Source: Secundilactobacillus similis DSM 23365 = JCM 2765
Lineage (GTDB): Bacteria; Bacillota; Bacilli; Lactobacillales; Lactobacillaceae
Length of the DNA: 64,000 nucleotides
Assembly: GCF_001311075.1 (NCBI RefSeq)
Contig: NZ_BBAD01000001.1
Coordinates: forward strand, 1 to 64,000
Direction: 5' to 3'
How positions within the stretch are numbered: the stretch's first letter is position 1; each line of letters starts with the position of its first letter. Under the pieces are notes generated by a model. It was given only the letters and a program-made list of their open reading frames with translations, ran no database searches and was not told the DNA's origin. A program made the translations under genes and the position numbers. Positions 12,293 to 57,096 of this stretch are shown here, piece after piece.

Positions 12293-12960
12293 ATGAATTT
12301 ACTCAAACAAGGGTTATTGCTGTTGGGCATGTTGGGGGATTAGTGACTGAGCCGCTATCGAGTCGGGCTAAGTTGGTTACCCGAACAGAGTTTGCTCGAG
12401 GGCAGCTACCACGGATGACGCAGTGGTCGCAGTTTCAGTCAGCAGATCGGACAACCGACCGCGCGCCTTTAGCTGTAGGGCCGGTTTGGACGCCAGCAAC
12501 GCAACGTTGGCAGCAAACGACGATCACGTACCGGTTAGCCCCGATGTCGGCATATTACCGTCAAATTTGGCGTTCAGCGGCGAGACATTGGAGTCGGGTG
12601 AGTTTAATTAACTTGGTTGAAACAAAGGCGAAATCAGCGGATATTACGGTTCAGACGAAGAAGCAACCGGCGCACGTTGCCCCAAGCATCGTGGGGATGA
12701 CGACTTCGCGGCATTATAGTCGGACGAAGCTAGCCAATCTCAACGTACTCGCAACGGCGACCGCTACGTTATATCGAGATACAACGAAGGCCTTACGCTA
12801 CACGCGACTACAACGGATTCACGTTGCAGAGCATGAATTTGGTCACACATTAGGCCTACAACATGCGCCATTTCAGCAAAGTGTGATGTACTACGTGACT
12901 AGGGACCGCACGATTACGGTTGCGGATATTCGTGGCATTCAACGCGCTTACGCAAATTAG
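12293..12960 (+). CDS. Secreted matrixin-like zinc metalloprotease, frame broken
   Basis: A predicted exported metzincin of about 222 residues. From ATG 12293 (AAAAGGAGC upstream) the N-terminus MNLLKQGLLLLGML is a signal-peptide core; the frame then stops in a G run at 12334-12338, and restoring one G joins it to GLVTEPLSSRAKL. The C-terminal domain has the matrixin zinc signature HEFGHTLGLQH followed by a Met-turn (SVMYYV), as in peptidase M10A. Lactobacilli carry similar small secreted Zn-proteases of unknown substrate. It follows the redox operon by 70 bp and has no obvious own terminator. Confidence 0.8.
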
Positions 12961-12992
12961 GTTGAGTTTGCTGATTATTTTGAGATAAGTAA

Positions 12993-13020
12993 TTGACAAT
13001 TCTATAATTCGGCGTATCAT
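12993..13020 (+). promoter_or_regulatory. Promoter before the SDR remnant
   Basis: TTGACA (12993-12998), 16-bp spacer, TATCAT (13015-13020), about 38 bp before the GTG start. Confidence 0.55.
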
Positions 13021-13058
13021 ATTTCTCAACTTATGACCGCTTGAAGGGAGCTGGGCAC

Positions 13059-13226
13059 GTGAAAAGAACGTGGATGATTACCGGATTAAGCAACGGCTTT
13101 GGCCAAAAATTGATTCAAAATTTAATCAAGAAGGGTAAGCAAGCAACCACTAATGCTCAGCAAGAACTGAAAGTTAACAGTTCGCGCAATCAGGGTAGGG
13201 TGGATGTGTTAATTAATTTGCGCTAG
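13059..13226 (+). pseudogene. Remnant of a short-chain dehydrogenase
   Basis: Only 55 codons remain. The start (GTG 13059, GAAGGGAG upstream) reads RTWMITGLSNGFGQKLIQNL, the Rossmann start of an SDR, then jumps through a short lysine/asparagine-rich link to RVDVLIN, which in intact SDRs leads to NAG. The middle of the cofactor domain is therefore missing and the catalytic part is absent altogether. The reading frame ends with TAG exactly where hairpin element A begins. No remainder of the gene is visible on the far side of the element. A promoter and ribosome site are retained, so a short peptide could still be made. Confidence 0.65.
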
Positions 13227-13346
13227 AGTGCGGAACGAAACGGTTTGAGAGCGGCGTGTAAGGGTAATCCGGTGAAAGCCCCGGGCCTGGGGTTTTACCG
13301 GGTTACCCTTACACATAGCTCTCAGTTTCGTGGAGCACGTTTCGGC
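13224..13346 (+). repeat. Hypervariable hairpin element A
   Basis: A long imperfect palindrome. Outer pairs are GTGC/GCAC and ACGAAAC/GTTTCGT, then GAGAGC/GCTCTC, then the variable arms starting GTGTAAGGGTAA and closing TTACCCTTACAC, with the loop around GGGCC. It ends with GTTTCGGC. It begins on the TAG of the SDR remnant. Boundaries are by comparison with the other copies. Confidence 0.8.
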
Positions 13347-13387
13347 TCGAGGACAGCAACGAACCAAGCATAAAAAAATTGAATTTG

Positions 13388-13422
13388 AAAGAACTGTCGA
13401 TCATATCGGCGGTTCTTTTTTT
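13388..13422 (+). terminator. Rho-independent terminator
   Basis: AAGAAC..TCGATC pairs with ..CGGCGGTTCTTTTTTT; clear T run. Confidence 0.65.
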
Positions 13423-13605
13423 GTTGATGATAGTTGTACGTAACGGTAGAGGAAACGCGTAAATTTAACGTCACTTAAACAGTTATTTTCAAGATTCTTA
13501 AAACAACAGAAAATTACCAACCACGCGCTTTTCGACCATCGTTCCGCACGTTGTCACAACAGTAACTCAACCGTTTTCAATGAACAAAAAACCAAGTGAT
13601 GTTGA

Positions 13606-13677
13606 TTGACAAATCACCGATATGCTTGTATTGTAATCAGTTAGTTAGCTAACAGTGTCGGCTAAGTTGACACTGTT
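13606..13677 (+). promoter_or_regulatory. cfa promoter and 5' UTR hairpin
   Basis: TTGACA (13606-13611), 17-bp spacer and TATTGT (13629-13634). Just downstream, AACAGTGTC (13651-13659) and GACACTGTT (13669-13677) form a perfect 9-bp stem in the leader, a possible operator or mRNA-stabilising hairpin. Confidence 0.6.
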
Positions 13678-13726
13678 CAGTAAACGTTTTACGTTAATTA
13701 GGAAATTGGAATGAGAGAAGGCAGAA

Positions 13727-14920
13727 GTGGTGTTAGAAAAAACGGTTTATCGGCAATTACTGAGTCGGGCATTTGACATTCCCGTTACAGTAACCTATTG
13801 GGATGGTAAGCTAGAAGCTTATGGTGAAGGCGAACCGGTTGTTCAAATCAAGATCAACAAGGAAATTCCGTTGAAAGAAATGACGGATAAGCCAACCTTA
13901 ATTTTAGGCGAAGCTTACATGAAAGGCGACATTGAAATTGACGGTTCAATTCAAGAACTCGTTGCGTCGGCCTATCGTCAAGCAGGGAGTTTCTTGAAGC
14001 AAAACTCATTCTTGAAGCACTTGCCAAAGATGTCTCACTCTGAAAAATCTAGCCAAAAAGACATCCAAAGCCATTACGATATCGGTAACGACTTCTACGA
14101 AATGTGGCTTGATGATACGATGACTTACTCATGTGCCTACTTTGAACACGATGACGATACGTTGGAACAAGCCCAATTGAACAAGGTTCACCACATCTTG
14201 AACAAGTTGCACCCAGAATCCGGCAAGCGGTTGTTGGATATTGGGAGTGGCTGGGGTACTCTGTTGTTCATCGCCGCTGAAGAATACGGCTTGAACGCTA
14301 CCGGGGTAACGTTGAGTCAAGAACAATACGATTACACGAAACAACAAATTAAGGAACGCCACCTTGAAGGTAAGGTTGACGTCTTACTCGAAGACTACCG
14401 TGAAGTGAACGATCAATTTGATTACGTCACTTCCGTTGGGATGTTCGAACACGTTGGGAAGGAAAACCTTGGGTTATACTTCCAAAAAGTGGCCGACTTC
14501 TTGGTACCAGAAGGTCGCGCGTTAATTCACGGGATCACTGGCCAACACGAAGGCGCTGGGGTGGATCCATTTATTATCAAATATATCTTCCCAGGTGGCT
14601 ACATTCCTAACGTTTCCGAAAACTTGAAGCACATCATGGATGCTAAGTTACAGTTCTCTGACATCGAACCACTCCGTCGTCACTACCAAAAGACGTTGGA
14701 AATGTGGTATGCCAACTACGAAACTGTCCGTGAACAAGTGATTGCCAAGTACGGCAAGGAATTTGACCGCATGTGGTCACTTTACCTGCAAGCTTGCGCC
14801 GCTTCATTTGAGGCCGGCAACATTGACGTTATTCAATACTCATTGGTTAAAGCACCAAGTGGTACTGGTTTACCAATGACGCGGGATTACGTTTACGAAG
14901 AAGATAAGGTTAAAGCTTAA
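13727..14920 (+). CDS. cfa: Cyclopropane-fatty-acyl-phospholipid synthase
   Basis: A 397-residue enzyme that transfers a methylene group from S-adenosylmethionine to unsaturated acyl chains of membrane phospholipids; in lactobacilli it makes lactobacillic acid from vaccenic acid. The SAM-binding motif [13 protein letters not shown] is followed by [10 protein letters not shown] and the E of [12 protein letters not shown], and the conserved [24 protein letters not shown] precedes them. The C-terminus ends MTRDYVYEE, as usual. The GTG at 13727 (or the next codon) follows GAGAGAAGG. It is monocistronic with its own promoter and terminator. Confidence 0.95.
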
Positions 14921-14928
14921 GTATTATG

Positions 14929-14958
14929 AATCGCTCTCCGATTGAGGGCGATTTTTTT
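14929..14958 (+). terminator. cfa terminator
   Basis: ATCGC..CTC / GAGGGCGAT followed by seven T. Confidence 0.75.
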
Positions 14959-14968
14959 GTGCTGTCGT

Positions 14969-15297
14969 TTGTGTCCAGCGTAAGTGTGCGGAGCGAGACG
15001 GGTTGAGAGTGGTGTGTAGGGGCACTTCGGTGAAAGCGCCCGGGCCTGGCGGTTTTATCGAAGTGCCCCTACATGCAGCTCTCAGTCTCGCGCAGCACCA
15101 TTCGGCGCGGTGGCCAGAAAGCGCGTGGTTGACAAGTTTCTACAACTTCAGGAACCCTGGAAATAACAGTTTAAGTGGCGCCGAATTTTGTAGCCTGAGA
15201 GCGCCGGTTTCCATGCGGCTTTGGCGAGCGAAGCGACGACAAACAGTCAACACCCAAATCTCACCCAAATCTCACCCAACACTTACGCTGGACACAA
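14969..15297 (+). repeat. Hypervariable hairpin element B with terminal inverted repeats
   Basis: The hairpin core (14985-15110) has stem 1 GCGAGAC/GTCTCGC, a GAGAG/CTCTC stem, and variable arms from GTGTAGGGGCACTTC to GAAGTGCCCCTACAT around CGGGCCT. Downstream TTCGGCGC (15101-15108) is matched by GGCGCCGAA (15177-15185). The whole unit is bounded by perfect 19-bp inverted repeats: TTGTGTCCAGCGTAAGTGT (14969-14987) and its complement (15279-15297). Confidence 0.8.
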
Positions 15298-15305
15298 GTG
15301 ACAGC

Positions 15306-15348
15306 AAAAACCACCATCACCCGGGAAATAACAGGTAATGGTGGTTTT
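15306..15348. terminator. Terminator serving the ABC exporter (and + strand)
   Basis: AAAAACCACCATCACC / GGTAATGGTGGTTTT with a 12-nt loop. On the minus strand it follows the ABC gene stop by about 25 bp. Confidence 0.75.
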
Positions 15349-15373
15349 ATCATTAATTCAAAAAGTAACGCAA

Positions 15374-17699
15374 TTATTCCGTCCGTAAAGCAGTCGCCGC
15401 ATCCTTTTTAGATGCCATTCGTGCCGGAACGTGACCACCAAGTACGGTCAGAACCGTACTGATAATAATCAGGATAATCGCATGCATTGGGTTCAACTGC
15501 GCAACGTTACTCAAGTCGGTCATGCCCTTCAGTACGGCGTTGATTGGGAAGGTTGCCAGCCATGCAATCACGATCCCGATGACCCCAGAGGCGACTCCAA
15601 GGATCGTGGTTTCAGCATCGAACACTCGGGTAATATCGCGTTTCCGGGCACCGAGGGCTTTGAGGACCCCGATTTCCTTGGTCCGTTCCAGAACGGAGGT
15701 GTAGGTGATGATACTGATCATGATCATACTTGTGACCAGCGAGATACCGGCAAAGGCCACTAAGACGTAGGTAATCGCGTCCATCAAGCCACCAGTCAGC
15801 TTCGAAACGGAGCCGGCCATGTCGGTGTAGATAACCTTGTCAGCCTTGGATTTGCCTTTGTTGTAGGCGTCTAGGTATGAGAGAACCTTATCCTTAGCTT
15901 GAAGTTGTTGGGGTAAATTAAGATGCTAGAAGGTGTTTTAGAACCGCCTAAGTAGCTAATGAGTTGTTCTTTGGCGGCGCTTGAATCAACCGTTGCGCCA
16001 GTCAGCACGTTACGGGAGCTGGCCTTTTGCGCCTTCACAATGTCCGAAGACGCGTTTTGATCAACAAGTTGCTTCGTTAAGCGATCACTGTAGGCAAATC
16101 CAGGGGAGAGGATGCCTTCCTCATTAGCGGATTTGACCCGCAGAACACCGACCACGTGGAGCGTCTTGTTAGCGCTGTTCTTGTACATTGAAGCGTAGTT
16201 GGTATTTGGCAAGAACATCGTTGCCGTTGGGTGTAGTAGGCGTTGTTGGAAACCGTCTTGAAGGTTGTGCCAACGATCTTGTTGAAGTTTAACTTTTGAC
16301 CGTCTTTAACGGTGTAGCCAAGGTTCTTTAACGCGTTGATGTTGGTTGAATTATCCTTATTTACGATTAACACGACGTCAGTTGCCTTAGATGGGAAGCT
16401 CCCGGAAATCGCTTTATAGTGCTTTTTGAGGAAGCTGACCTTACCAGCATTGTCGGTTGGGTATGATGATACGCCGACACCAGTGCTGCTGGCCATCATG
16501 CTACTGTAGTCGACACCGTTGGCCTTACTTTGATCGGTGTTGGAGAGTTGAACGGGTTTGATTTTGCCGTTCACATTGCGTAGCAGGTTCATGCCGGTCG
16601 TGTAGGTGTAGCCAATATTTTTCCCGTATTTGGGATTCAAATCATTCACGTAATTGAGGTACTTTTGGGTTAATTTGTTGGTGTGCTGAGCCTTATCTGA
16701 ATCGCTGATCTTAGCTACCACGGTGTTGTCCTTAGAGAAGTGCTCCTTCTTGTTGGCCATGCCCGTTTGCGAGGTAGCATTTTGCGAAATCGTGACCGGA
16801 TATTGCGCCAAGGTGTTCGACTGCGTTTTGTCGATTTGGCGTTGGAAGCCGTTAGATAACGCTAAAACGATTGCGATGCCGATGATCCCGATGCTGGAGG
16901 CAAAGGCGGTCAGGAACGTCCGGCCCTTCTTCGTTCGAATGTTATTGAAGGAGAGTTTGAGGGCGGTGGTGAAATGCATCTTGGTCTTCTTCAATTCAAA
17001 CTGATCGGTACTTTCAGCTTCGTTGTATGGGTTAGAATCCTTTTGAATCTTCCCGTCCGCAAATTCAATGATTCGGTCCGCGTACTGGTGCGCCAAATCT
17101 GGGTTATGAGTAACCATGATGACGAGGCGCTCTTTAGAGAGTTCCTTGATCAATTCCATGATTTCAACACTGGTGACGGTGTCTAACGCGCCGGTTGGTT
17201 CGTCACAGAGTAAAATTTCGGGGTCGTTGGCAATTGCCCGTGCGATGGCGACCCGTTGCATTTGCCCGCCAGAGAGTTGGTTGGGCTTCTTATGCATATG
17301 ATCGCCCAAGCCAACCCGTTTAAGGGCGGCGATGGCCTTTTCTTTCTTTTCGGCAGCGGGGACACCACTCAACGTCATCCCTAATTCAACGTTATCGATG
17401 ATGCCGAGGTGCCCAATCAGGTTGTAGCTTTGGAAGATAAAGCCAACCGAGTTGTTCCGGTAGGCGTCCCAATCAGAAGCACTAAACTTCTTGGTTGATT
17501 TCCCTTTAATAATCAAATCGCCGGAATCGTAAACGTCCAGTCCGCCAATGCCGTTCAGCATCGTAGTCTTCCCAGACCCACTAGGGCCAAGAATCGCGAC
17601 AAATTCCTGCTTCCGAAAGGCAACGGAAACGTCGTCTAACGCTTTGGTGACGGTGTCGCCAACTTCGTAGTATTTTTTAATATGTTGTAGTTCAAGCAT
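15374..17699 (-). CDS. Fused ABC transporter ATPase-permease (MacB/FtsX type), frame broken twice
   Basis: A single polypeptide of about 775 residues when repaired. The N-terminal 220 residues are a LolD/MacB-type ATPase: Walker A GPSGSGKT (38-45), Q-loop, LSGGQMQR signature, Walker [13 protein letters not shown] and switch MVTHNPD. Next come one transmembrane helix, a large extracellular MacB-like domain, and three C-terminal helices of an FtsX permease ([11 protein letters not shown] ... [16 protein letters not shown]). Such fusions in lactobacilli export peptides or sense antimicrobials. Frame breaks near 16229 (one C missing) and 15900 (one A missing) each restore family sequence. Element C lies just upstream. 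Confidence 0.85.
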
Positions 17700-17740
17700 G
17701 TTTTGTAGCCCCCGTTCTTAGGTTATTATACGGTAGTAAA

Positions 17741-18060
17741 GAGAGTGGAGCAAGGCGGTTAGAGAGCGGAGCCTAAGGGACTCTCGCCAGAAACTCCGGG
17801 TTTTGGAGTTTGTGGTGAGAGTCCCTTAGGTGCAGCGCTCTGTCTTGCGGAACTCGTTTCGGCGCAGTTGCCGAAAGGCAGTAGCGTTAGCAAGTTTCAC
17901 AATCCAATCGATCACGGACCAACTAAAGCCTAATTGGCGCCGAAAATAAGTAATCGCAATGCTCGTCGTCAGTACCACTATAAAGTAATGAAGCTCCCGA
18001 TTTTTGGGGATTTGTGGTGGGCGGGACTTAGGTACGCTCCTCACAGTAGACAGCTAATCA
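17741..18060 (+). repeat. Hypervariable hairpin element C with partial second copy
   Basis: Core 17741-17865: GCAAG/CTTGC outer stem, GCGGTTA, GAGAGC/GCGCTC, then arms from CCTAAGGGACTCTC to GAGAGTCCCTTAGG, ending GTTTCGGCGC. Downstream the TTTCGGCGC / GGCGCCGAAAA pair is present (about 17858 and 17934). A degenerate second 3' half (GGGATTTGTGGTG, then GGACTTAGG) lies near 18004-18040. The unit sits in the 530-bp gap between the ABC exporter and the zinc island; no gene is seen in that gap. Confidence 0.75.
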
Positions 18061-18232
18061 ACACCTCACCCCAAACCATCACCCAGGAAATACGCCACCA
18101 CCAACAAAACCCAACCCACAAAAAAAATCACCATCCCAAACCGCCGCGGGCAGTCCAGAATAGTGATCATTAAAACGGGTTATTCAAATTCGCCACACCA
18201 GCGAACTTTAAAGTTAAGTGAATGATGAAACG

Positions 18233-18340
18233 TTACTTCTTCCGCTTTGCGTCCCGAATAATCTTCATCGCGCGTTTGCGGGTCTTCAAACTGGGACTCT
18301 TCAGTCGGCGGTAAGCACTAGCTAAATCAGTTTTTTCCAT
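18233..18340 (-). CDS. Small basic protein, putative metal homeostasis peptide
   Basis: A 35-residue Lys/Arg-rich peptide starting MEKTDLASAYRRLKSPSLKT and ending in KRKK. GGAGGTTATCTCG provides a strong ribosome site before ATG 18340. It follows the alternative S14 gene by 12 bp, so it is in the same Zur-type operon. I recall lactobacillar peptides of this length and sequence annotated as putative metal homeostasis proteins; no mechanism is known to me. The high basic content would also fit a ribosome- or nucleic-acid-associated peptide. Confidence 0.75.
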   Translation of the reverse strand: MEKTDLASAYRRLKSPSLKTRKRAMKIIRDAKRKK

Positions 18341-18352
18341 CGAGATAACCTC

Positions 18353-18622
18353 CTACCAGCTGGCTTTACGAACCCCAGGAATTTGGCCCAAGTGAGCGTA
18401 CATTCTGAAGTTCAGACGAGACATGCCAAATTGACGCATGTAACCACGAGGGCGACCATCTAAACGGTCACGGTTCCGCAGCCGGTTAGGGTTGGAATCC
18501 TTAGGCAGGCGTGCCAATGCGGCGTAATCACCCTTAGCCTTCAGTTCCTGACGTAGCTCAGCGTACTGAGCGATAAGCTGTTGTTGCCGGTGAAACTTAG
18601 CAATCTTTGATTTTTTTGCCAT
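18353..18622 (-). CDS. rpsN: 30S ribosomal protein S14, zinc-independent form
   Basis: An 89-residue S14: [30 protein letters not shown] at the start and [34 protein letters not shown] at the end. It lacks the CxxC...CxxC zinc ribbon of the short S14, so it is the C-minus paralog that replaces the zinc form when zinc is scarce. GGAGT precedes ATG 18622; the frame is open further upstream but without S14 similarity. It is divergent from the zinc-binding lipoprotein gene, and a Zur-like box lies in the shared promoter. Ribosomal protein genes outside the main operon are typical for this paralog. Confidence 0.93.
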
Positions 18623-18753
18623 AACTACTCCTTTGACGTTAACAAGTGAAATGATTAGAAACAACCACTTAAATGAGCCACTTACAATTTGTCAAGAAAC
18701 TTAATATAGCAGATTAATTAGTATTTGGCGACTAATTTGACTCAAAAATATGT

Positions 18754-18774
18754 AAAACGTAAAAATTACTATTT
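18754..18774 (-). promoter_or_regulatory. Zur-box-like site, S14 side
   Basis: On the minus strand AAATAGTAAT-T-TTTACGTTTT matches 18 of 21 positions (counting the free central one) of the Bacillus Zur box as I remember it. It would control the S14/small-peptide operon. Confidence 0.5.
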
Positions 18775-18823
18775 ACATCGTTGACTGAATTCGTTATTAT
18801 TTAAATCGTTATCATTACGATTT
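18772..18823 (+). promoter_or_regulatory. Promoter and Zur box of the zinc-binding lipoprotein gene
   Basis: TTTACA (18772-18777), 17 bp, TATTAT (18795-18800). A 21-bp near-palindrome at 18803-18823 has half-sites AAATCGTTA and TTACGATTT, one mismatch from the B. subtilis Zur consensus, placed over the expected transcription start. Repression by zinc-loaded Zur is inferred. Confidence 0.75.
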
Positions 18824-18843
18824 GAGAGAAGGAGTTTGTTATT

Positions 18844-19755
18844 TTGAGAAAAGAATGGGTAAAGTTAAGTGGGTTATTGATTGCAGTAATCGTGATTGGA
18901 CTTGGCATGAGCGGCTGTGGCCAGCAAAGCAAGTCAGCAACGAACAAGCAACTTAATGTTGTTACCAGCACTGACTTCTATGGTGAGGCGGCGCGGGCGG
19001 TACTGGGCAATAAAGGAACCGTAACGTCGGTGATCAATAACCCGGCCACGGATCCGCACGATTATGAACCCACACCAGCAGTTGCTAAGAAGGTGCATCA
19101 AGCTGACGTGGTGGTTGCGAATGGCGTGGGATACGATAGCTGGATGACGAAGTTGACGGCTGATGGTGACTCAAGTCGCGTTATTCGCGTTGGTGAGGAT
19201 CTGATGAACAAGCAAAACGGGGATAATCCGCATTTGTGGTACCAACCGGCAACGATGCCGAAGTTAGTGACGGCATTAGCAGCTAAATACGCAAAGAAAC
19301 AGCCGCAAAACAAACGGTATTTTGAAAAAAATGCCAAGGCTTATGTGAAATCACTCCAGCCCATTACCCGGGAAATTGCTAAGATCAAGCAGACTGTGGC
19401 ACATACGGGTAACCGGAACGTCTACGTCAGTGAACCGGTTTTCGACTACGCACTGACTGCGATGGGCTTTAAAGTTGCGAACCACGAGTTTGAAGAAGCC
19501 ATTGAAAATGAAAGTGATCCATCACCAAAATCAATTGCGGCTATGCAGGCAGGGATTAAGTCACACAAAGTTGCGGTTTTTGTTTACAACAAGCAAGTCA
19601 GCAGTAAAACTGTCACCAACTTAGTTAAGCTGGCCAAACAGCACAACGTGCCGGTGTTGCCCGTAACTGAAACCTTACCCAAGGGCAAGACGTATCGAAC
19701 TTGGCTGTTGAGCGAGTACCAAGCCTTAGCTAAGTTACTCGCTGCCGATAATTAA
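18844..19755 (+). CDS. Zinc/manganese ABC transporter substrate-binding lipoprotein (ZnuA/AdcA-like)
   Basis: A 303-residue cluster 9 solute-binding protein. The signal peptide ends in a lipobox (GLGMSGCG). Predicted metal ligands are His in DPHDYEP, His in NPHLWYQP, His/Glu in NHEFEEA and an acidic residue in the C-lobe. TTG 18844 is the start, with AGAAGGAG upstream. No ATPase or permease gene follows, so this is an orphan binding protein that must use a transporter encoded elsewhere. The Zur box points to zinc. The C-terminus ends without a His-rich loop. Confidence 0.88.
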   Translation: MRKEWVKLSGLLIAVIVIGLGMSGCGQQSKSATNKQLNVVTSTDFYGEAARAVLGNKGTVTSVINNPATDPHDYEPTPAVAKKVHQADVVVANGVGYDSWMTKLTADGDSSRVIRVGEDLMNKQNGDNPHLWYQPATMPKLVTALAAKYAKKQPQNKRYFEKNAKAYVKSLQPITREIAKIKQTVAHTGNRNVYVSEPVFDYALTAMGFKVANHEFEEAIENESDPSPKSIAAMQAGIKSHKVAVFVYNKQVSSKTVTNLVKLAKQHNVPVLPVTETLPKGKTYRTWLLSEYQALAKLLAADN

Positions 19756-19823
19756 CGTGGTCAACACTCCTAGTGACCGGTTATAATAAAGCCAGAAGTC
19801 ACACTAAATTGGGGGATAAGCAG

Positions 19824-20534
19824 ATGGACTACACAATTACCGAAGGGGCAACGTTTCCATTGGTCAACTTGACGTTAGCGCAAAACGAGACAGTTCAAAT
19901 CGAATCGGGTTCAATGGTGTATCACGATGGCCGGGTCAGTCTTGAAGGGTCCATGAATAGCAACGGTAAGAAGGGGTTTGGCGGTTTGATGAGTGCCATC
20001 GGCCGTTCCGTGACCAGCGGTGAAAGCTTCTTTATTACCCGGGCAATTGGTCAGGCAAACGGTGTGCAGTTAGCGATTGCGCCGAAAACGCCGGGTGCGA
20101 TTAAGGCGATTCAACTGGATAGCGCCCATCAATGGCGCCTGAACACTGGTGCATTTTTAGCTGGTAGCGATGGCACCACGTATTCGATGACCCGTCAAAA
20201 AATCGGTGGCGCCATCTTCGGCGGGACGGGTGGACTGTTTGTGATGGAAACCGCGGGTGCGGGCGAAATGCTAATCAACGCTTACGGTGACATTCAACTG
20301 TTACACGTGACGCCTGGCGCACCGCTAGTTGTGGATAACGACCACGTGATTGCTTGGTCGAGTACGTTGGATTACGAGATTAAACCGGCGTCCGGATTAG
20401 TTGGCTTTACGACTGGTGAAGGACTTGTGAATGCCTTTACCGGGACGGGCGATGTTTATATTCAAACCCGGAACTTGCGTGGCTTGGCGGAGTTGTTGAA
20501 GCCGATGATGCCGAGTGGTGGGAGTAGTAACTAG
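19824..20534 (+). CDS. TIGR00266/AIM24 family protein
   Basis: A 236-residue protein of the AIM24/TIGR00266 family: Gly-rich beta-helical sequence with the family hallmarks IESGSMVYHDG, GGLMSAIGRSVTSGESFFI, GGTGGLFVMETAG and WSSTLDYEI. It has no signal peptide or membrane segment. Family members are widespread in Firmicutes and of unknown biochemical function. ATG 19824 is chosen because GGGGGATAAG precedes it; the frame is open 17 codons further upstream without similarity. It appears monocistronic. Confidence 0.88.
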   Translation: MDYTITEGATFPLVNLTLAQNETVQIESGSMVYHDGRVSLEGSMNSNGKKGFGGLMSAIGRSVTSGESFFITRAIGQANGVQLAIAPKTPGAIKAIQLDSAHQWRLNTGAFLAGSDGTTYSMTRQKIGGAIFGGTGGLFVMETAGAGEMLINAYGDIQLLHVTPGAPLVVDNDHVIAWSSTLDYEIKPASGLVGFTTGEGLVNAFTGTGDVYIQTRNLRGLAELLKPMMPSGGSSN

Positions 20535-20660
20535 GGTTAAATAAGAATTAGGAAGCGGCACTAACATCGCGGTTGGCTATCAAACGTGGTGTTGGGGTCG
20601 TTTTTAGGTTGAGGGCCTTTTTTGATTGGTTGTGGAGCTTGGCGGTTCGTTGCTGTTACA

Positions 20661-20745
20661 TAGTTGAAACGTGCTAAAAATCGCAGGCCCTGGCCATATA
20701 AGCAGGATAACAGCATGAATCCCAAAGAGCGGGTGCTGTTACAGT
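20661..20745 (-). repeat. Truncated hypervariable hairpin element K
   Basis: On the minus strand this carries the inner variable arms (around GATAACAGCA/TGCTGTTA) and then only the 3' half: CTTATAT, GGGCC, the TGCGATTTTTAGCA stem-1 arm and CGTTTCAAC. The 5' half is missing. It abuts element J, with which it shares stem 1 but not the variable arms. Confidence 0.75.
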
Positions 20746-20760
20746 TTAATCCTTTTACAT

Positions 20761-20890
20761 AGCCGAAACGTGCTAAAAATCGCAGGCCCCGGCCATATAA
20801 GTAGAATAACACCATGACCCCCAAGGGGCGGGGGCCATGGTGTTATTCTACTTATATTCTGGGGCCTAACCGCGATTTTTAGCACGCTTG
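20761..20890 (-). repeat. Hypervariable hairpin element J
   Basis: Minus-strand order: GTGCTAAAAATCG (stem 1), CGGTTA, GGCCCC (stem 2), AGAATATAAG, arm TAGAATAACACCATG, GC-rich loop, complementary arm, CTTATAT, GGGGCC, TG, stem-1 complement, CGTTTCGGC. It fits the family layout exactly. Confidence 0.85.
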
Positions 20891-20936
20891 CATTTTACCC
20901 CCTAACCCCTTAAACTTACTTAACATAGACAGAAAA

Positions 20937-21027
20937 AACACTAGGGGTGCCACTTGTGGCTGAGATGGGCGTTGCCCGATCCCTCGGAACCTGTTAAGTT
21001 AGTGCTTGCGAAGGAAAGTGTTGAAAT
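20937..21027 (+). promoter_or_regulatory. TPP (thi-box) riboswitch
   Basis: The conserved thi-element cores are present in order: ACTAGGGGTGCC, GGCTGAGATG, CCCTCGGAACCTG, then GTTAGTGCTTGCGAAGGAAAGTG. Binding of thiamine pyrophosphate would close the terminator downstream and shut off cytX-thiW. Confidence 0.93.
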
Positions 21028-21042
21028 CATCGGGATCATTAA

Positions 21043-21090
21043 ATGATGGCCTTTCGTGCACAATGTTCATTGTCGCGATGGGCTTTTTTT
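21043..21090 (+). terminator. Expression-platform terminator of the TPP riboswitch
   Basis: GCCTTTCG..CACAATG pairs with CATTGTCGCGATGGGC and is followed by TTTTTTT, just before the cytX ribosome site. Confidence 0.75.
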
Positions 21091-21117
21091 GTCGAAAAAG
21101 AGTGGAGGTTGTTTAGA

Positions 21118-22301
21118 TTGGGAAACACGAAGTTAAGCGGACTGTTCCTACTGTGGATCGGTGCAGCAATTTCGATTGCTGAAATCGTGACGGGGACGTT
21201 GATTGCACCGCTGGGGTGGCAAGTTGGGTTAATGGCAATTATTCTCGGCCACGTGATTGGCTGCTTTGTTTTCTTGCTGCCAGCGGGGTATTTATCAGCT
21301 CAACAGAACCGAACGGCAATCAAGGCAACGAAAACGGTGTTCGGTGAATCCGGCGTGACGCTGTTTTCACTGCTAAATGCCGTGCAGTTGCTCGGCTGGA
21401 CCGCAGTCATGATCGTTAACGCGCAATTAGCGATGAACGGCATTGCCAAATCACTGTTTCACTACCAATCCGTGGTGGTGATGTCGGTGATTGTTGCGGT
21501 GATGATCATCATCTGGTTGCTGATGAACCACAATTGGCTGTTTAAGATCAACAACGTCATCGTGGTGTTGCTAGCGATTGGATGGTACTGATTCTCTTTA
21601 CGATTATCGGCGAAGGCCGGTTGAAAGTCGGCGCCAACTTAGCGCCCATTAGCTTTGGGAGCGCCGTTGAGTTGAATGTCACCATGGCCTTGTCGTGGTT
21701 GCCATTGATCGGTGACTACACGCAACACACCGACCGGCCATTTAAGACCAGTTTGGCCAGTGTGAGCGGGTACTTTGTTGGGAGTATCGCGATGTTTGCG
21801 CTGGGACTATTCACGGTGATTTTGACGGGGCAATCCGATTTCACAACGGTCTTATCGCACTCCAGCATGGGGCTAGTGGCACTGCTGATCATTGTGTTTT
21901 CAACGGTCACAACGACCTTCATGGACGCCTACTCAGCTGCGACGAACGTGGCGAACTTAGTTAAGACGAAGCGGGTCAACGTGATTGCCATCGTCATCAC
22001 GGTGCTGGGCTTACTGATTGCGCTGTTCGTTTCGATGGCGTACTACCAGAACTTCCTGTACGCGATTGGCGCGGTCTTCACACCGTTATTTGCGATTCTA
22101 TTCGTCAGTGTGTTTTGGATGCATCAACGGTTATCGATCACGCTCAACTTTGTGTGGTGGGTGATTGGCGTTGTGGGCTATTCTTGGTTACAGCGGTTGG
22201 ACTTTTTCTTGGGCACAACGTTCTTCTTGCTGCTCGTGCTCAGTATCGGGGTGTATTTGACGAGCCTAGTTGCGCCGAAATACCCACTAATTGAAGATTA
22301 A
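21118..22301 (+). CDS. cytX: Hydroxymethylpyrimidine transporter CytX, frame broken
   Basis: An NCS1-family (cytosine/purine permease-like) transporter of about 394 residues with 12 predicted helices. The TPP riboswitch in front and thiW behind identify the thiamine-linked CytX subfamily, which takes up the HMP moiety. TTG 21118 with GGAGG upstream is the best start. The first frame ends at 21591 (...LLAIGWY); restoring one A near 21582 gives LLAIGMVLILFTIIGEG and continues to 22301. Key cation-coupling motifs were not checked. Confidence 0.88.
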
Positions 22302-22329
22302 CTAACGTTGGTGTAAGGGAGCGAAGACG

Positions 22330-22827
22330 ATGACAAAACGGGTTTATTACATGACCATGACGTCGATTCTGGTGGCATTGGGCGTCATTGGGGGCAGCTT
22401 TTTCGAGTTTACGGTGGGCGTGGCTAAAGTGGCGCCGATGCAACATTTGATCAACTTGATCTCTGGGGCACTGTTGGGTCCTTGGTGGGCGTTAGCGCAG
22501 GCGTTTTTGACGTCGTTGATTCGTAACATCATGGGAACGGGGACGATTTTGGCCTTCCCGGGAAGCATGTTTGGTGCGTTTTTGAGTGGCTTGATGTTTC
22601 GTTACACCAAAAAATTAATTGGCGCCGTGTTCGGTGAACTGATTGGCACGGGCATCATCGGCGCCATTGCGGCGTATCCAATCGCCAGCTGGTTGTTAGG
22701 GACCAAGGGCGCGCTGTGGCTATTTGTGCCAAGTTTCTTCTTGAGTGCGTTGGTTGGCGTTGTGATTGGGTATGCGTTGTTGAAGAGTATTTGGAAGACT
22801 GTGATTGTGCCGCAGATGAAGAAGTAG
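22330..22827 (+). CDS. thiW: Energy-coupling factor S component ThiW
   Basis: A 165-residue membrane protein with five to six helices, the S subunit of an ECF transporter. SGALLGPWWALAQAFLTSLIRN and GTILAFPGSMFGAFLSGL are ThiW hallmarks. ThiW subunits bind the thiazole precursor of thiamine and use a shared EcfAA'T module encoded elsewhere. AAGGGAGCG precedes ATG 22330; the gene follows cytX by 28 bp in the TPP-controlled transcript. Its TAG stop is followed directly by element D. Confidence 0.9.
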   Translation: MTKRVYYMTMTSILVALGVIGGSFFEFTVGVAKVAPMQHLINLISGALLGPWWALAQAFLTSLIRNIMGTGTILAFPGSMFGAFLSGLMFRYTKKLIGAVFGELIGTGIIGAIAAYPIASWLLGTKGALWLFVPSFFLSALVGVVIGYALLKSIWKTVIVPQMKK

Positions 22828-23083
22828 AGAGAGTGGAGAAGGGCGGTTAGAAGGTGGGTGTATAAGGGGAGAAAGGCGAAAAGCCCTGGGCTTGGGGCTT
22901 TTGCCTTTCTTCCCTTATATGCAACCTTCTGCCCTTCGGAACTCGTTTCGGCACGGTGGCCTCAAAGCGGTAACGTCTGCAAATCAGCCGAAGCTTCCCG
23001 AGGTTAAGGAAGGTTTGTCTGTTTCCGCCTTACACGCAGCTCTCTGCCCTTTAGAACTCGTTTCGACACGGTGGCCTAAAAGC
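22828..23083 (+). repeat. Hypervariable hairpin element D with partial second copy
   Basis: Core 22828-22961: GAAGGGC/GCCCTTC, GCGGTTA, AGAAGGT/ACCTTCT, then arms GTATAAGGGGAGAAAGGC and GCCTTTCTTCCCTTATAT with a TGGGCTT loop, ending GTTTCGGCACGGTGGCC. A second 3' half at 23022-23083 repeats CCTTACACGCAGCTCTCTG, GCCCTT and GTTTCGACACGGTGGCC without a 5' partner. Confidence 0.8.
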
Positions 23084-23222
23084 GCCGTCACGCCACCCAA
23101 CTCGGCTCCCACAAATATCTCATTCAAGTTACCTTTAAATTAAGTTTCCATCAAATCCACCATTTACCAGCCGATACCATGCTAAACTAGACATACTCTG
23201 TGAAAAAAGGACGGTCAAAAGC

Positions 23223-23672
23223 ATGGGACAAACACGTGCGTTAAGATTCGGGCTGGTTGGTATCGTTGGCAGTTTAATCGGTTTGAGCACTTGGCTCGGC
23301 ATCCGGTTATACGCCGTAATCCATTACGCGCCCGTTATTTTGACGATTACTGGCGTTGCGGTTGTGGTGGCGTTGGGCTTACTACTATACGTGGCTTATT
23401 GGTTAAACCGAATTTTAAACTATATTGATATGAACGTTGCGTTCTCGGAAGCGTCACTTGAGGCGTTACAGAAGATTAAAACCGCGGTATTGCGGATGAG
23501 CGTGGTGTTGAGCACCACACTGATTGCGTTTTATCAGGCGTCAGCGTTAAGCGGTTCATTTGGCATTTTGATCGTTGGTATGGGCTTTGTTGTCGTGCCG
23601 TTTGCGGTCTACGTTTTCTGTTCCGTATTGGAAAAATTGTTGGAACGGGCCATTGAAACCACAGGCTTGTAA
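23223..23672 (+). CDS. DUF2975-type membrane protein
   Basis: A 149-residue protein with four predicted transmembrane helices, in the style of DUF2975 family proteins, which are often paired with a small Xre regulator; none is adjacent here. AAAAAGGACGG lies before ATG 23223. Function unknown. A long perfect terminator follows. Confidence 0.65.
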   Translation: MGQTRALRFGLVGIVGSLIGLSTWLGIRLYAVIHYAPVILTITGVAVVVALGLLLYVAYWLNRILNYIDMNVAFSEASLEALQKIKTAVLRMSVVLSTTLIAFYQASALSGSFGILIVGMGFVVVPFAVYVFCSVLEKLLERAIETTGL

Positions 23673-23680
23673 GCATCAAT

Positions 23681-23730
23681 AAAAACGTTCTGGATCATCT
23701 CAAATTGAGATGATCCAGAACGCTTTTTTT
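23681..23730. terminator. Bidirectional terminator before apbE-like gene end
   Basis: AACGTTCTGGATCATCTCAA is matched by its complement TTGAGATGATCCAGAACG; A and T runs flank it. Confidence 0.88.
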
Positions 23731-23734
23731 GATG

Positions 23735-24679
23735 CTAAATCAAATGGTAAGTGTCATCAGTCAACTGGAACCGATCCGTTAAGCCAGAGGTGATGGCAAC
23801 CTTAAAGTCGCGCGTCACGAAAATGGCTTCCAAACCGGGTTGCTTTTCAATCAACGGAATGCCGTTTTCAATGTCTTGATAGAAGCCCTCAGTCGTCCAA
23901 ATATCGCCGTCGATTGAGTCATCGCTGACGATAGTGACGCTGGCGAGGTCGTTTTTGATGGGATAGCCGGTCTTCGAATCAAACATGTGGTGGTAGTTAT
24001 GACCGTTGATGACCAAGAACCGCTCGTAGATACCGGAAGTCACAATGGATTTGGCCGTTGTGGTCAGGACACCCAAGGCAACGTTGCGTTTTTGAACCGG
24101 GTTTTGAACTCCAATTCGCCAGAGACCGTTGGGATGTACGCTGTTGCCAACCAGCAAAATGTTACCGCCGAGGTCGATGATGCCAGTTTGAACGCCGCGG
24201 CTCTCCCACAACGTCCGAATCGCGTCGGCAATGTAGCCCTTCGCAATGGCGCCAAGGTTGATTTCCATTCCCGGTTTGGTGAGAAATACCGAACGTTGGG
24301 CGTCATCGAGCTTGATGTCATCGGGGTTAATCAGGTTCAGTCGTTCTTGAATATCAGCGTCAGCTGGTAAGTTTGCGCCGTCAAAGCCAATTTTCCAAAG
24401 CTTGACTAATGGTCCGATAGCGGTGTTAAAGCCTAACCGCCACTGACTGACTTCAACCGCCCGTTTGATGAGTTGGTAGACGATGTCAGAAACCGTCACC
24501 GCGTGCTGACCAGCAGCGTGATTGACCGACATCACTTCTGATTCGGTACGGTTCACGGTTAAAAGATCTTCATAGTGCTTGATGAGGTCGTTTCCTGCGT
24601 CAAGATCCGCCTCAGTCGCTGGTTCGTTGACGGAGAGGTTAATGGCGGTGCCGAGCCCGTAGTACGTTTTATGGAGCAT
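23735..24679 (-). CDS. apbE: FAD:protein FMN transferase (ApbE family)
   Basis: A 314-residue flavin transferase that links FMN to Ser/Thr of target flavoproteins using FAD. Family features: GLGTAINLSVNEP near the start, FNTAIGPLVKLWKIG, INLGAIAKGYIADAI, DLGGNILLVG, the HMFDSKTGYPIKND catalytic/metal motif, and VTIVSDDSIDGDIWTT. There is no signal peptide or lipobox, so it acts in the cytoplasm, as do Lactobacillaceae ApbE proteins that flavinylate cytoplasmic fumarate-reductase-type enzymes. A candidate client is encoded at 44213-45587. ATG 24679 is used. Confidence 0.92.
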   Translation of the reverse strand: MLHKTYYGLGTAINLSVNEPATEADLDAGNDLIKHYEDLLTVNRTESEVMSVNHAAGQHAVTVSDIVYQLIKRAVEVSQWRLGFNTAIGPLVKLWKIGFDGANLPADADIQERLNLINPDDIKLDDAQRSVFLTKPGMEINLGAIAKGYIADAIRTLWESRGVQTGIIDLGGNILLVGNSVHPNGLWRIGVQNPVQKRNVALGVLTTTAKSIVTSGIYERFLVINGHNYHHMFDSKTGYPIKNDLASVTIVSDDSIDGDIWTTEGFYQDIENGIPLIEKQPGLEAIFVTRDFKVAITSGLTDRFQLTDDTYHLI

Positions 24680-33699: not shown

Positions 33700-35730
<2,031 letters not shown>

Positions 35731-36130
35731 AGAGCGTAACAAAACGGTTAGAGAGTGAAATATAAGGGCGCCCCGAGTAAACTACCGGTTTTTTGGTAGT
35801 TTTACTCGGGGCGCCCTTATATGCAGCTCTCTGTTTTGTGGAGCTCATTTCGGCGCAGGCTAATCAAAGCAGTGACGTTAGCAAACTTCACACTGTAGTC
35901 GATGATTGCCAACAAGGAGGTCGCGTGGCGCCGAAAATATGTAATAGTAACGAGCGTCGCCAATTCCACTCGGTATTCTTAACGCAGTATCCCAGGTTTT
36001 GGCCAGTAGTGCTTGGACGCCCTTATGTGCAACTCTCAGTTTTGTGGCGCTCATACATCGGTAATGCACATCGCCAACATCACTCAGTATCCTTAATGCA
36101 ATACTCCAAATCTTAGCCAGTATCGTTTAC
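35731..36130 (+). repeat. Hypervariable hairpin element E with downstream modules
   Basis: Core 35731-35856: ACAAAAC/GTTTTGT, CGGTTA, AGAGAGT/GCTCTCT, arms ATATAAGGGCGCCCCGAGT and ACTCGGGGCGCCCTTATAT, ending TTTCGGCGC. GGCGCCGAAAATA follows near 35927. A second 3' half (GCCCTTATGTGCAACTCTC, GTTTTGTGGCGCTCAT) lies at 36014-36060, then a repeated segment (ACTC..GTATTCTTAACGCAGTATCCC and ACTCAGTATCCTTAATGCAA). No gene seen in the 610-bp gap. Confidence 0.8.
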
Positions 36131-44212: not shown

Positions 44213-45587
44213 ATGGCAGATAAGTTTCGGTTTGAGCCGACGCCCCTAGATCAGTTGCAGTCCCACTACGACGTTGTAATCGTGGCTCCGGTGGCACTGG
44301 GCTGACGAGTGCGATTCGGGCGCACGAGTTGGGCCTGTCACCAGTAGTTTTGGAAAAAATGCCCCAGTTAGGTGGGAACACCACCCGGGCATCGTCTGGC
44401 ATGAACGCCGCAGCCACCGAAGTGCAGCGCAAGCATCACATCAAAGATACGGTGGCTTCGTTCTACCATGACACCTTCGTCGGCGGTGGCGAGCAAAATA
44501 ACCCCGAGTTGTTAAAATACTTCACGGAAAATGGTGCCGACGCCATCGACTGGTTAATGAAGCACGGCATCGTCTTGGATGACTTGACGATTACCGGTGG
44601 CATGTCTACGATGCGGACCCACCGACCAAGTTCAATGGCGCCAATTGGCGGGTATTTGGTCACTGAACTCCTGAAACTAGCTGACAAGCTGAGTTGCCAA
44701 TCTTTACGGAAATGCACGTGGACCGGCTATTAACGACTGGTGATGCCGTGACTGGCGTTGAAGTGACCACCGGCGATGAGACGCACACCATTACGGCGGA
44801 TGCGGTCGTTCTAGCAACCGGTGGCTTTGGCGCCAACGAAAAGTTGTTAACGCGATACCGACCAGAATTATCGGGCTACCGCACGACCAACCAACCCGGC
44901 GCGACCGGTGACGGCCTTCAATTAGCGCGGCAGGTTGGGGCTGAACTTGTGGATATGAAGCAGGTTCAAGTCCATCCAACCGTTCAACAGGATACGGACC
45001 ACGCCTTTTTGATCGGTGAAGCCGTTCGGGGCGAAGGTGCGATTCTGGTTGATCGCCAAGGCAAGCGGTTCGTGAACGAACTAGCGACTCGGAAAGTGGT
45101 CACGGCGGCCATTGAATACCTTGATGAGAAGGGTGCTTACCTGATTTTTGATCAAAGCGTTCGTGATCGGGTGAAGGCGATTGAATTTTACGACCACGTT
45201 GGGTTAGTGACTACCGGTGCGACATTAGCGGAGCTGGCTGAAAAAATCGGCTTTGATGCTGAGACGTTGGCGGCTACGGTTACGACTTGGAACACGGCTG
45301 TTGCGACTAAGCACGATGGCGCCTTTGGGCGGACCACTGGGCTTGATCGTGAATTAACGCAAGCACCATACTTTGCGATTCACGTGGCGCCAGCAGTTCA
45401 CTATACGATGGGCGGCGTTCGGATCAACGCTCAGACGCAGGTACTCCGCGAAGACGGCACGCCAATTACCGGACTGTTTGCGGCTGGTGAAGTTGCGGGC
45501 GGCTTGCATGGCAATAACCGGATCGGTGGTAATTCGATTGCGGAGACCGTGGTGTTTGGGTTGCAGAGTGTAGCAAAACTCGGTTAG
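44213..45587 (+). CDS. Fumarate reductase/succinate dehydrogenase flavoprotein-type enzyme, frame broken twice
   Basis: A soluble FAD-dependent fumarate reductase-like protein of about 458 residues. After repair of a missing G at 44284 the N-terminal dinucleotide motif reads VIVGSGGTGLTSAIRA; a second missing G near 44691 joins ADKL to ELPIFTEMHVDRLL. Other family marks: LGGNTTRASSGMNA, LATGGFGANEKL, GEAVRGEGAILVDRQGKRFVNEL and HYTMGGVRINAQTQVL with the C-terminal GGLHGNNRIGGNS. It lacks an FMN-binding domain in this polypeptide. It reduces fumarate with a partner donor and depends on, or acts beside, the ApbE transferase. GAGGAAGG precedes ATG 44213. Its TAG stop lies within element I. Confidence 0.88.
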
Positions 45588-45688
45588 GTCCCAGAATGTA
45601 AGTGAATAGTGCCGTAGATTCCCGATTTTGGAATCTGCGGTACTATTTGCTTACATGGCAGGGGCCTGAGTTTTGCGCACGTTTAGGC
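45566..45688 (+). repeat. Hypervariable hairpin element I, overlapping a stop codon
   Basis: GAGTG, GCAAAACT (stem 1), CGGTTA, GGTCCC/GGGGCC, AGAATGTAAG, arms AATAGTGCCG and CGGTACTATT then AGATTCC/GGAATCT, CTTACATGGC, TG, AGTTTTGC, GCACGTTTAGGC. The TTAG of CGGTTAG contains the stop codon of the preceding flavoprotein gene, so the 5' 20 bp are coding. Confidence 0.8.
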
Positions 45689-45799
45689 TAGATAGGCGGT
45701 TTACGGTAACGGTGACTTTAATTGAATTCTGAGTTAAGCAGAGATTTAATTTTTGTCGATGGTTGAGTTGCTGCGATGTTGAAGTAACGAAAGATATAT

Positions 45800-45844: not shown

Positions 45845-46099
45845 AGTGGATTATTGAGTATGTGATGGCGACACGCATTGCGATTACGTTGTTTTCGGCT
45901 TGGTTTGGGCTTTTATTTTCCGGAAGCCAGTTCAATTGAGAAGTTTGTCAGCATTAGTTCGTTCTGGCCACCACGCCGAAACGCGCAAACCGAAGCAAAG
46001 AGTTGCATACAAGGAAGGACCAGTAATACTACCCGATTTTTGGGTAGTATTACTGGTCCTTCCTTGTACTCCACTCTTTAACCGCTTCGGTTTGCGCTC
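45845..46099 (-). repeat. Hypervariable hairpin element H
   Basis: Minus-strand order: GAGCG (sharing the TAG of the Doc-like gene), CCGAAGCGGTTA, AAGAGT/AACTCTT, arms GTACAAGGAAGGACCAGTA and TACTGGTCCTTCCTTGTA, stem-1 complement GCTTCGGTTTGCGC, GTTTCGGCGTGGTGGCC. Downstream the second stem closes with AAGCCGAAAAC and GTAATCGCAATGCGTGTCGCC, as in elements C and E. The core is 45972-46099. Confidence 0.8.
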
Positions 46100-46491
46100 T
46101 ACTTCATCTTCAAATTAGCATCAAACAACTTAAACAACCGATCGTAATCAATCGCTTCACTATCCGTATGTTCGAGCTCCACCGCTAAATCGGCGAGTTG
46201 GCTTGTGCTGAAAGTGAGTTCGTAGTCGTTTAAGTCCGCTAGGGCAGCGACTGCGATAACTGCCGTTTGTAGGTTATTGGTACTAAATGGCTTGCCGCTG
46301 ATGATGGCTGCTAACAGGAAGCCGGTTTTGTTGGCGACCATTTCTCTTAAGCTATGGTCGTAGAAGTTGGCTTGTGGGACGGCGATAATTTTATTTAATT
46401 GTTCGGCCTTAGCGATTCCGGGCTGTTTGCCTTCCTTGAGGGCTAAGTGGCTGTTGATGGCGACGAGTTCGTCGGCAGTGAGATAACGCAT
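46099..46491 (-). CDS. Doc-like (Fic-fold) toxin homologue with degenerate active site
   Basis: A 130-residue protein of the death-on-curing group: MRYLTADELVAINSHLALKE at the start and the helical core MVANKTGFLLAAI. The family motif HxFxxxNKRT, which holds the catalytic His and phosphate-binding Lys/Arg, here reads KPFSTNNLQTAVIAV, so His and both basic residues are replaced. Kinase or AMP-transfer activity is therefore doubtful; it may be inactive or a regulatory homologue. It overlaps the antitoxin-like gene by one base. A pair-type toxin-antitoxin role is inferred from context. Confidence 0.75.
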   Translation of the reverse strand: MRYLTADELVAINSHLALKEGKQPGIAKAEQLNKIIAVPQANFYDHSLREMVANKTGFLLAAIISGKPFSTNNLQTAVIAVAALADLNDYELTFSTSQLADLAVELEHTDSEAIDYDRLFKLFDANLKMK

Positions 46492-52423: not shown

Positions 52424-52660
52424 GGAGAAGCGGTTAGAGAGCGGAGTATAAGGCGACTTCAGCTAAAACGCCTGGGCTTTGGGCGTTTTAGCTGAAGTTG
52501 CCTTATATGCAGCTCTCTGCTTCTCCGAACGCGTTTCGGCGTGGCCGAGGGAACAAGTTGTGAAATAGTAATTTCATAGTGATTAATTCCCGGGAAATAT
52601 AATTTCAAGTGGCGCCGAAAAGAACGTTGCCAGAAAGCACGTCGCCATTAATACACGGTA
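52416..52660 (+). repeat. Hypervariable hairpin element F
   Basis: Core 52416-52546: GGAGAAGC/GCTTCTCC, CGGTTA, AGAGAGC/GCTCTCT, arms GTATAAGGCGACTTCAGCT and AGCTGAAGTTGCCTTATAT with a TGGGCTT loop, ending GTTTCGGCGTGGCC. GGCGCCGAAAAG follows near 52612, then GCACGTCGCC. The 310-bp gap holds no gene. Confidence 0.82.
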
Positions 52661-56973: not shown

Positions 56974-57096
56974 AGCTGAAACGAGTTCCAAAAGGCAGAG
57001 AGCTGCATGTAAGGCCGACAAGGTAAAAGCCCAGACCCATGGCTTTCACCTTGTCGGCCTTACACACCGCTCTCTAACCGCCTTTTTCCACTCTCT
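56974..57096 (-). repeat. Hypervariable hairpin element G
   Basis: Minus-strand order: GAGAGTGG, AAAAGGC/GCCTTTT, CGGTTA, AGAGAGC/GCTCTCT, arms GTGTAAGGCCGACAAGGT and ACCTTGTCGGCCTTACAT, TGG-rich loop, GGAACTCGTTTCAGC. It lies head-on to the XRE gene, so it does not follow a same-strand stop codon. Confidence 0.8.

Follow-up and report, generated by a model that had tools for sequence, protein, structure and literature searches.

Two adjoining sequences on the minus strand, designated J and K, were found in a 64,000-nt stretch of DNA (hereafter, the window) to be parts of a dispersed family of hairpins. Pairing is kept in this family while the letters vary, one strand shows a marked bias in its mispairs, the copies favour certain positions relative to genes, and half copies lie next to full ones. 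As a joint explanation, we consider these to be probably once-mobile hairpins of Lactobacillaceae, in which pairing on the functional strand (F; the minus strand at J) is kept and the letters drift, with K as a local partial duplicate of J, and with a putative role at mRNA 3' ends. A tempting reading is thereby corrected: variable arms need not imply exchange of arms.

The hairpin J and its partial copy K

J (20761-20890, minus) is an inverted repeat that forms a single long, near-perfect hairpin of 55 pairs by RNA folding. On the minus strand it consists of stem 1 (20872-20886 with 20769-20783), a bulge (20868-20871), stem 2 (20861-20867 with 20784-20790), and a long arm (20830-20857 with 20795-20822). 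The F strand after the stem reads CGTTTCGGC, and the F-3' tail together with the J/K joint was located by reading the sequence at 20742-20761 (minus); this tail, GGCTATGTAA, is also present in J-like copies of other species. With DNA energies the fold reached -54.8 kcal/mol (z -13.6), and none of 200 shuffled sequences folded equally well, while RNA folding gave -90.9 kcal/mol for the minus strand versus -85.9 kcal/mol for the plus strand. Apart from structure and folding, J was compared with R2, a structure model built exclusively from copies outside the window (37 of 43 divergent copies, the six left out including members of the J subfamily). R2 detected J with 91.5 bits (E 1.3e-20) on the minus strand and 46.8 bits on the plus strand, indicating that J belongs to the dispersed family as modelled from other copies only.

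K (20653-20741, minus) retains the F-3' strands of the arm, stem 2, and stem 1, plus the tail. Its 5' half is gone except for a short apical hairpin (20708-20715/20734-20741, minus), and the sequence thus confirmed the initial annotation, which had described K as lacking its 5' half on the minus strand. By itself K folds no better than shuffled sequences (z -0.43; 62 of 200 equally good), and R2 did not detect it as a full element. The 5' stem strand of J can also pair with the 3' strand of K, as it does in the minimum-energy fold of the two together.

J and K adjoin head to tail in the same orientation, 99 nt apart. Both carry GCGATTTTTAGCACGTTTC on the minus strand, in agreement with the common stem-1 arm noted initially. 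The 15-mer CGTGCTAAAAATCGC has three exact occurrences in the 3.45-Mb assembly, two in J (both strands of stem 1) and one in K; because the exact 15-mer of stem 1 is confined to these two, J and K were taken as mutual closest copies. The head-to-tail arrangement, the absence of this exact stem 1 elsewhere in the assembly, and the full-plus-half arrays of other species described below support the local duplication that had been proposed.

The second part of that proposal, a replacement of the variable arms only, found no support at this locus. When 20653-20736 was aligned in register with 20752-20835, identity was 86% over 84 nt, arms included, with no difference in stem 1 (0/15) or stem 2 (0/7), five in the long arm (5/29), and two in the apex (2/11). 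The arms, which had been described as different in kind, are homologous; they appeared different because they had been read out of register. In the short hairpin, TAACAGCA/TGCTGTTA of K corresponds to TAACACCA/TGGTGTTA of J, a change compensated on both sides. The difference between stem 1 and the arm alone was not significant (p 0.15), and the comparison of both stems (no change) with arm plus apex (seven changes) was borderline (p 0.044), mildly favouring the initial annotation. As far as the sequence goes, the difference between J and K is explained by compensated drift, with no need for arm replacement.

K is an instance, as judged by sequence comparison, of a recurring rule. At seven loci in seven other species (G002, G004, G005, G007, G009, G010, and G011; two of the seven loci are orthologous), the F-3' side of a full element is flanked by a tandem series of one to four copies devoid of the F-5' strands, and an eighth such locus (in G009) is cut short. 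Where the motif was found, the units of these arrays are spaced by 56 to 106 nt, against 99 nt for J/K; the loci in G001 and G013 carry a full copy and no half. Four tandem half copies were observed at L138 (G009) and at L127 (G011). The 93-nt units of the G011 array differ by only one or two bases, and its growth may therefore be recent. With profiles of the two halves, solo halves in the own genome were 10 for F-3' versus 1 for F-5', and in related stretches 10 versus 4, so that F-5' halves on their own are no rarity in the latter, where some of the hits lie in full copies. K would accordingly represent, in the proposed mechanism, a partial head-to-tail duplication made on the spot without the F-5' half, and we infer that such half copies arise by polymerase slippage or template switching, probably provoked by the hairpin itself. 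A copying process that truncates the 5' side would leave a similar picture.

The dispersed family and its strand bias

The window contains 10 full copies. Besides J, these are a member of the short-tail class (13225-13347, plus), one of the B class with the outer inverted ends GTGTCCAGCGTAAG..CTTACGCTGGACAC (14983-15107, plus), one of the long-tail class (17740-17864, plus), one directly 3' of the stop codon of a ThiW-family gene (22828-22953, plus), two at stop codons (35729-35855, plus; 45974-46100, minus), one near a stop codon (52415-52541, plus), one of the J subfamily (45565-45689, plus), and one further member (56974-57096, minus). K-like F-3' half copies lie downstream of two of them, at 23027-23066 (plus) after 22828-22953 and at 36019-36053 (plus) after 35729-35855. 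In the region of the B-class copy (14944-15330), an inner GGCTTTGGCGAGCGAAGC segment was seen between the outer inverted ends; this class has several near-identical copies elsewhere in the genome and is therefore probably young. The F-3' tail of the long class (17740-18014 and similar) resembles a second domain, in which TTTCGGCG faces CGCCGAAA and is followed by the conserved GTAATCGCAATGCACGTCGCC.

The first structure model was made from nine window copies aligned by structure. Of their pairs 87.4% were standard, and 106 cells were changed on both sides, compared with 32.5 in shuffled alignments; 38 pairs showed such changes. All of the 150 candidates scored, from 912 in the 3.45-Mb assembly, matched this model, which sets the number of copies there at 150 or more. 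Matches were obtained in 24 of 60 genomes (own included) and 10 of 40 genera, the counts per genome being lower bounds from at most 58 scored candidates each. The window and 20 further stretches (436,514 bases in total, the stretches being chosen to reach known copies, so that copy density in them is not unbiased) gave 157 matches, with both strands of many hairpins counted, and alignment of the best 150, the seven weakest being left out, yielded 77 distinct copies. Across copies, stem 1, stem 2, and the arms all vary with pairing kept, and the 21 J-like elements from 14 genomes all fold as one long hairpin. Each copy retains pairing on F together with the bases at junctions and ends, and the letters of the arms are largely free. 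Among the families of Rfam release 15, only the TPP riboswitch (20933-21033) scored above its gathering score in the window; nine further weak matches at 12900-23300 were all below theirs.

We then compared the two strands with respect to mispairs. At paired positions of the 77 copies, the element's plus strand showed A-C 200 times and G-T 21 times, corresponding to G-U and A-C, respectively, on F. The same bias was seen in a set of 52 divergent copies (121 G-U versus 14 A-C on F), while base composition would give a ratio of about 1.3 to 1 by our estimate from pair counts. When orthologous copies of related species were compared (ten comparisons), the one-sided changes led to G-U on F in 21 cases and to A-C in 3 (p 0.0003). 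In addition, the F strand was the more stably folding one in 19 of the 21 J-like elements from 14 genomes (p 0.0002). Because G-U on F is about 10 times more common than A-C, also between orthologous copies, one strand of the element appears to be under selection, most simply as RNA.

Two simpler accounts were discarded on these counts. A strand-neutral hairpin acting as DNA only had been suggested by how seldom the nine window copies show a one-sided change to another standard pair on the plus strand; it was rejected, since A-C on the plus strand (G-U on the minus strand) is about 10 times more common than G-T on the plus strand in the 77 copies. Pure cytosine deamination on one strand was rejected as well, because the partners of the 21 orthologous G-U changes are evenly divided between A-T (11) and G-C (10).

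Pairing could also be kept by mutation instead of selection, if template switching at imperfect palindromes copied one arm onto the other and so restored the hairpin. Among the nine window copies, one-sided changes that remain standard pairs on the plus strand were limited to 2 cells versus 106 two-sided, as such correction would produce, and the half copies suggest that these hairpins disturb replication. Correction of this kind alone, however, predicts no excess of G-U on one strand, and the excess found was about 10 to 1 (21 to 3 between orthologues); we regard it as a very unlikely explanation.

Change between orthologous copies

A large set of hairpins with free letters and kept pairing offers a natural experiment on the evolution of RNA helices, and this experiment includes orthologous copies in species with flanks 76 to 88% identical. 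We compared 11 orthologous pairs from related species, some of which share a member and three of which come from within one trio. Among the arm pairs, 34 were changed on both sides and were Watson-Crick in both species; one-sided changes led to G-U on F in 16 and to A-C on F in 3, and 12 were of other types. Changed pairs amounted to 65/253 in the arm, 36/164 in stem 1 (p 0.41), and 9/88 in stem 2. The fraction of changed sites was 0.213 in the arm, 0.168 in stem 1, and 0.074 in stem 2, and 0.200, 0.153, and 0.083, respectively, when each locus contributed a single comparison; the rate in the arm was close to that in the flanks of these pairs, whose identity is 76 to 87%. By these rates the slow part is stem 2. 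Stem 1 does change between species, so that it is not in general fixed while the arms turn over, as replacement of the variable arms only would require. The arms would drift by paired substitutions, often by way of G-U, and for this reason they look variable between copies without any exchange of cassettes.

The nearest case to the replacement of arms was found at an amidohydrolase-like gene, where a copy stands at the stop codon in five species. Three of the five have a letter-identical 5' strand of stem 1; within this trio, two arms disagree at 13 of 29 positions in the ungapped alignment (22 of 31 columns are identical when gaps are allowed), and the arm of the third species differs at 3 of 29. 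At this locus a block may have been replaced. A second case, the orthologous arms of G007 and G001, was at one time taken as wholly different; this was rejected, because most pairs agree or are compensated once the two are in register.

The idea that the arms were replaced as blocks after a local duplication, through gene conversion from other copies or from a reservoir of half copies, has its best case at the amidohydrolase-like locus, where the strongly divergent arm accompanies an identical 5' strand of stem 1 in a close relative, and where the half copies carry other inner hairpins. The junction sequences common to the copies would also allow conversion. Against this stand the homology of the J and K arms, the point differences, mostly compensated, by which orthologous arms align, and the similar frequencies of change in stem 1 and the arm between orthologues. 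Arm replacement as the main process was rejected for J/K on the register of the arms and on the changeability of orthologous stem 1, and in its general form we consider it unlikely.

Position relative to genes, and comparison with known elements

The position of the 77 copies was examined relative to ORFs of at least 90 codons, called by a simple program. The upstream ORF was on the F strand in 49 copies and on the other strand in 19 (p 0.0004), with no ORF in the piece for the remaining 9. As many as 30 of the 49 fall between -22 and +12 of the stop codon, and 14 of the 77 start exactly at it, so that the element's first two bases form part of the TAG. For the 60 copies with enough flank, a strict scan marked a terminator-like site within 70 nt upstream in 9 on F and in none on the other strand (10 and 1, respectively, in a looser scan); no copy with such an upstream site was among the 24 stop-adjacent ones.

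The result for the downstream side depends on the settings of the scan. Within 400 nt downstream, the strict scan marked terminator-like sites in 8/60 copies on F, 20/60 on the other strand, 3/24 stop-adjacent copies, and 45/400 random pieces, and the looser scan in 26/60, 37/60, 13/24, and 100/300, respectively, the opposite strand of the 24 stop-adjacent copies being as high (14/24) in the looser scan. Replacement of terminators as a rule, suggested by the strict count of 3/24, was withdrawn on the looser count of 13/24. About half of the stop-adjacent copies may therefore sit between the stop codon and a terminator, that is, within the 3' UTR. By eye, some single loci do look as if a terminator had been lost. 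At the amidohydrolase-like gene, a terminator-like hairpin follows the stop codon in two element-free outgroups and none is evident beside the element. At the ThiW-family gene such a hairpin was seen in six of seven relatives, and beside the window's own copy a weak site was marked by the looser scan. Two further loci have a terminator-like hairpin after the stop codon in element-free relatives. At both the amidohydrolase-like and the ThiW-family loci, the gene stops a few codons sooner where the element is present.

Most likely, the family would serve within the 3' portion of mRNAs as a long hairpin of double-stranded RNA, placed at stop codons or after terminators and acting as a putative RNase III site or a protector of the 3' end. 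If copies truly lie in many mRNA 3' ends, a repeat family has altered the ends of mRNAs across a genus. A more far-reaching version holds that a mobile module, free in sequence, lands at stop codons, joins the mRNA 3' end, and at some loci displaces the native terminator. Selection would then act on duplex length and pairing and not on letters, so that copies drift yet remain duplex, and the tandem halves would serve as alternative partners for the 5' strand. This version was made less likely by the terminator-like sites downstream of 13 of the 24 stop-adjacent copies in the looser scan, and we hold it to be unlikely.

We next considered what could have moved the family. The bias toward one strand could also arise if the folded strand were single-stranded DNA serving as substrate for a recombinase or transposase (compare REP/IS200 and attC systems); the hairpins are strand-specific and present in many copies, near-identical copies occur at different places, and one orthologous site lacks the element. 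Among 41 genomes, a Y1 transposase was found in 18 and was absent from 8 of the 14 element-rich genomes (at least 37 matches each), and a match to RVT_1 was found in 13 and was absent from 11 of these 14. Neither the Y1 transposase (REP/RAYT, IS200-IS605) nor the reverse transcriptase (retron, group II intron) tracks the element in the 41 genomes, and both were rejected as mobilisers. In particular, G003, G004, G005, G006, G010, and G013, with at least 44 to 58 matches each, carry neither Y1 transposase nor RVT_1 at E 0.001, which argues against recognition as single-stranded DNA and leaves it an improbable alternative to RNA-level selection.

The attC sites of integrons end in boxes of the form RYYYAAC paired with GTTRRRY. 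No such boxes were seen by inspection of two element alignments, in which the conserved ends are AGAG.G and the motif that follows the stem of J. Group IIC introns insert after terminators, and a likeness exists in that some family copies immediately follow a terminator, always in the one orientation; the family is unlike them in that no Rfam intron family was found in the window or in the separate scan of 12900-23300, and no RVT_1 in most element-rich genomes. With respect to MITE features, outer inverted ends are present in the B-class copies, and no consistent target (TA) duplication was seen by eye in the long-tail copies. No match was obtained among plasmids for one B-class copy or J/K, or among phages for one long-class copy, in searches that may omit the own record and very close ones.

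Several known repeats are of a similar kind. According to the available text of PMC3049150, BOX, RUP, and SPRITE of Streptococcus are small interspersed repeats with predicted RNA folds and low current mobility, transcribed at the 5' and 3' ends of operons. The hairpin family likewise consists of small interspersed repeats with predicted RNA folds, and differs from them, as far as that text describes them, in letters that vary with pairing kept, in frequent starts at stop codons, and in halves after full copies. Correia elements (CREE) of Neisseria are present in more than 100 copies of up to about 157 bp, with inverted repeats that bind RNase III in the transcript; according to PMC2649163, they have ends of defined sequence, and many are found 5' of genes, whereas the stems of the hairpin family vary and the 3' side is favoured. 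The hairpin elements of sponge mitochondria are thought to be mobile, with tandem insertion and discussed roles in 3' UTRs; the excerpted text of PMC2800124 gives them conserved stems and varying loops, whereas the stems of the hairpin family vary with compensation. Surveys of low-GC firmicutes reported stable stem-loops near stop codons, discussed as terminator-like (PMC2267715, PMC1590033). Within the passages available from these surveys, Lactobacillus johnsonii (PMC1590033) and a family Lac-1 (PMC2267715) are named without details, and no family with free stem sequence, as in the hairpin family, is described. The family was not found described for Lactobacillaceae in an open-licence library of papers, which is weak evidence for novelty. 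Taken together, the kind, small interspersed structured repeats, is already known; what sets the family apart is that its stem sequence is free, that copies are placed at stop codons, and that full copies and halves form arrays.

J/K itself does not follow the placement at stop codons or after terminators, and is not at any stop codon. It has an AIM24-family gene on its left and, further right, the TPP riboswitch with the ThiW-family gene; the flanking genes are on the plus strand, that is, against F. Neither J nor K was marked as an intrinsic terminator (a short GC-rich stem followed by a T run); the terminator scan of 20400-21200 gave one site, at 21065 on the plus strand, outside both. No promoter-like site was found on either strand of 20400-21200 (chance mean 1.0). 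J/K is oriented against both neighbouring genes and may itself be idle. At the orthologous thiamine locus of relatives (1.5-kb flank), J/K does not occur at the corresponding position; two copies lie in tandem about 1.2 kb upstream in one relative, and weak matches were obtained in two others.

The riboswitch (20933-21033) is located 43 nt from J, and the F strand of J runs opposite to it, which places J within or beside the promoter region of the thiamine operon. Near the riboswitch, a gene for a membrane permease-like protein (21043-22301) is apparently split into overlapping frames of 182 and 239 codons, by a frameshift or an assembly error, and no Pfam family was found in either part. At 23672-23736, a separate inverted repeat of 32 nt between convergent reading frames is probably an ordinary two-way terminator.
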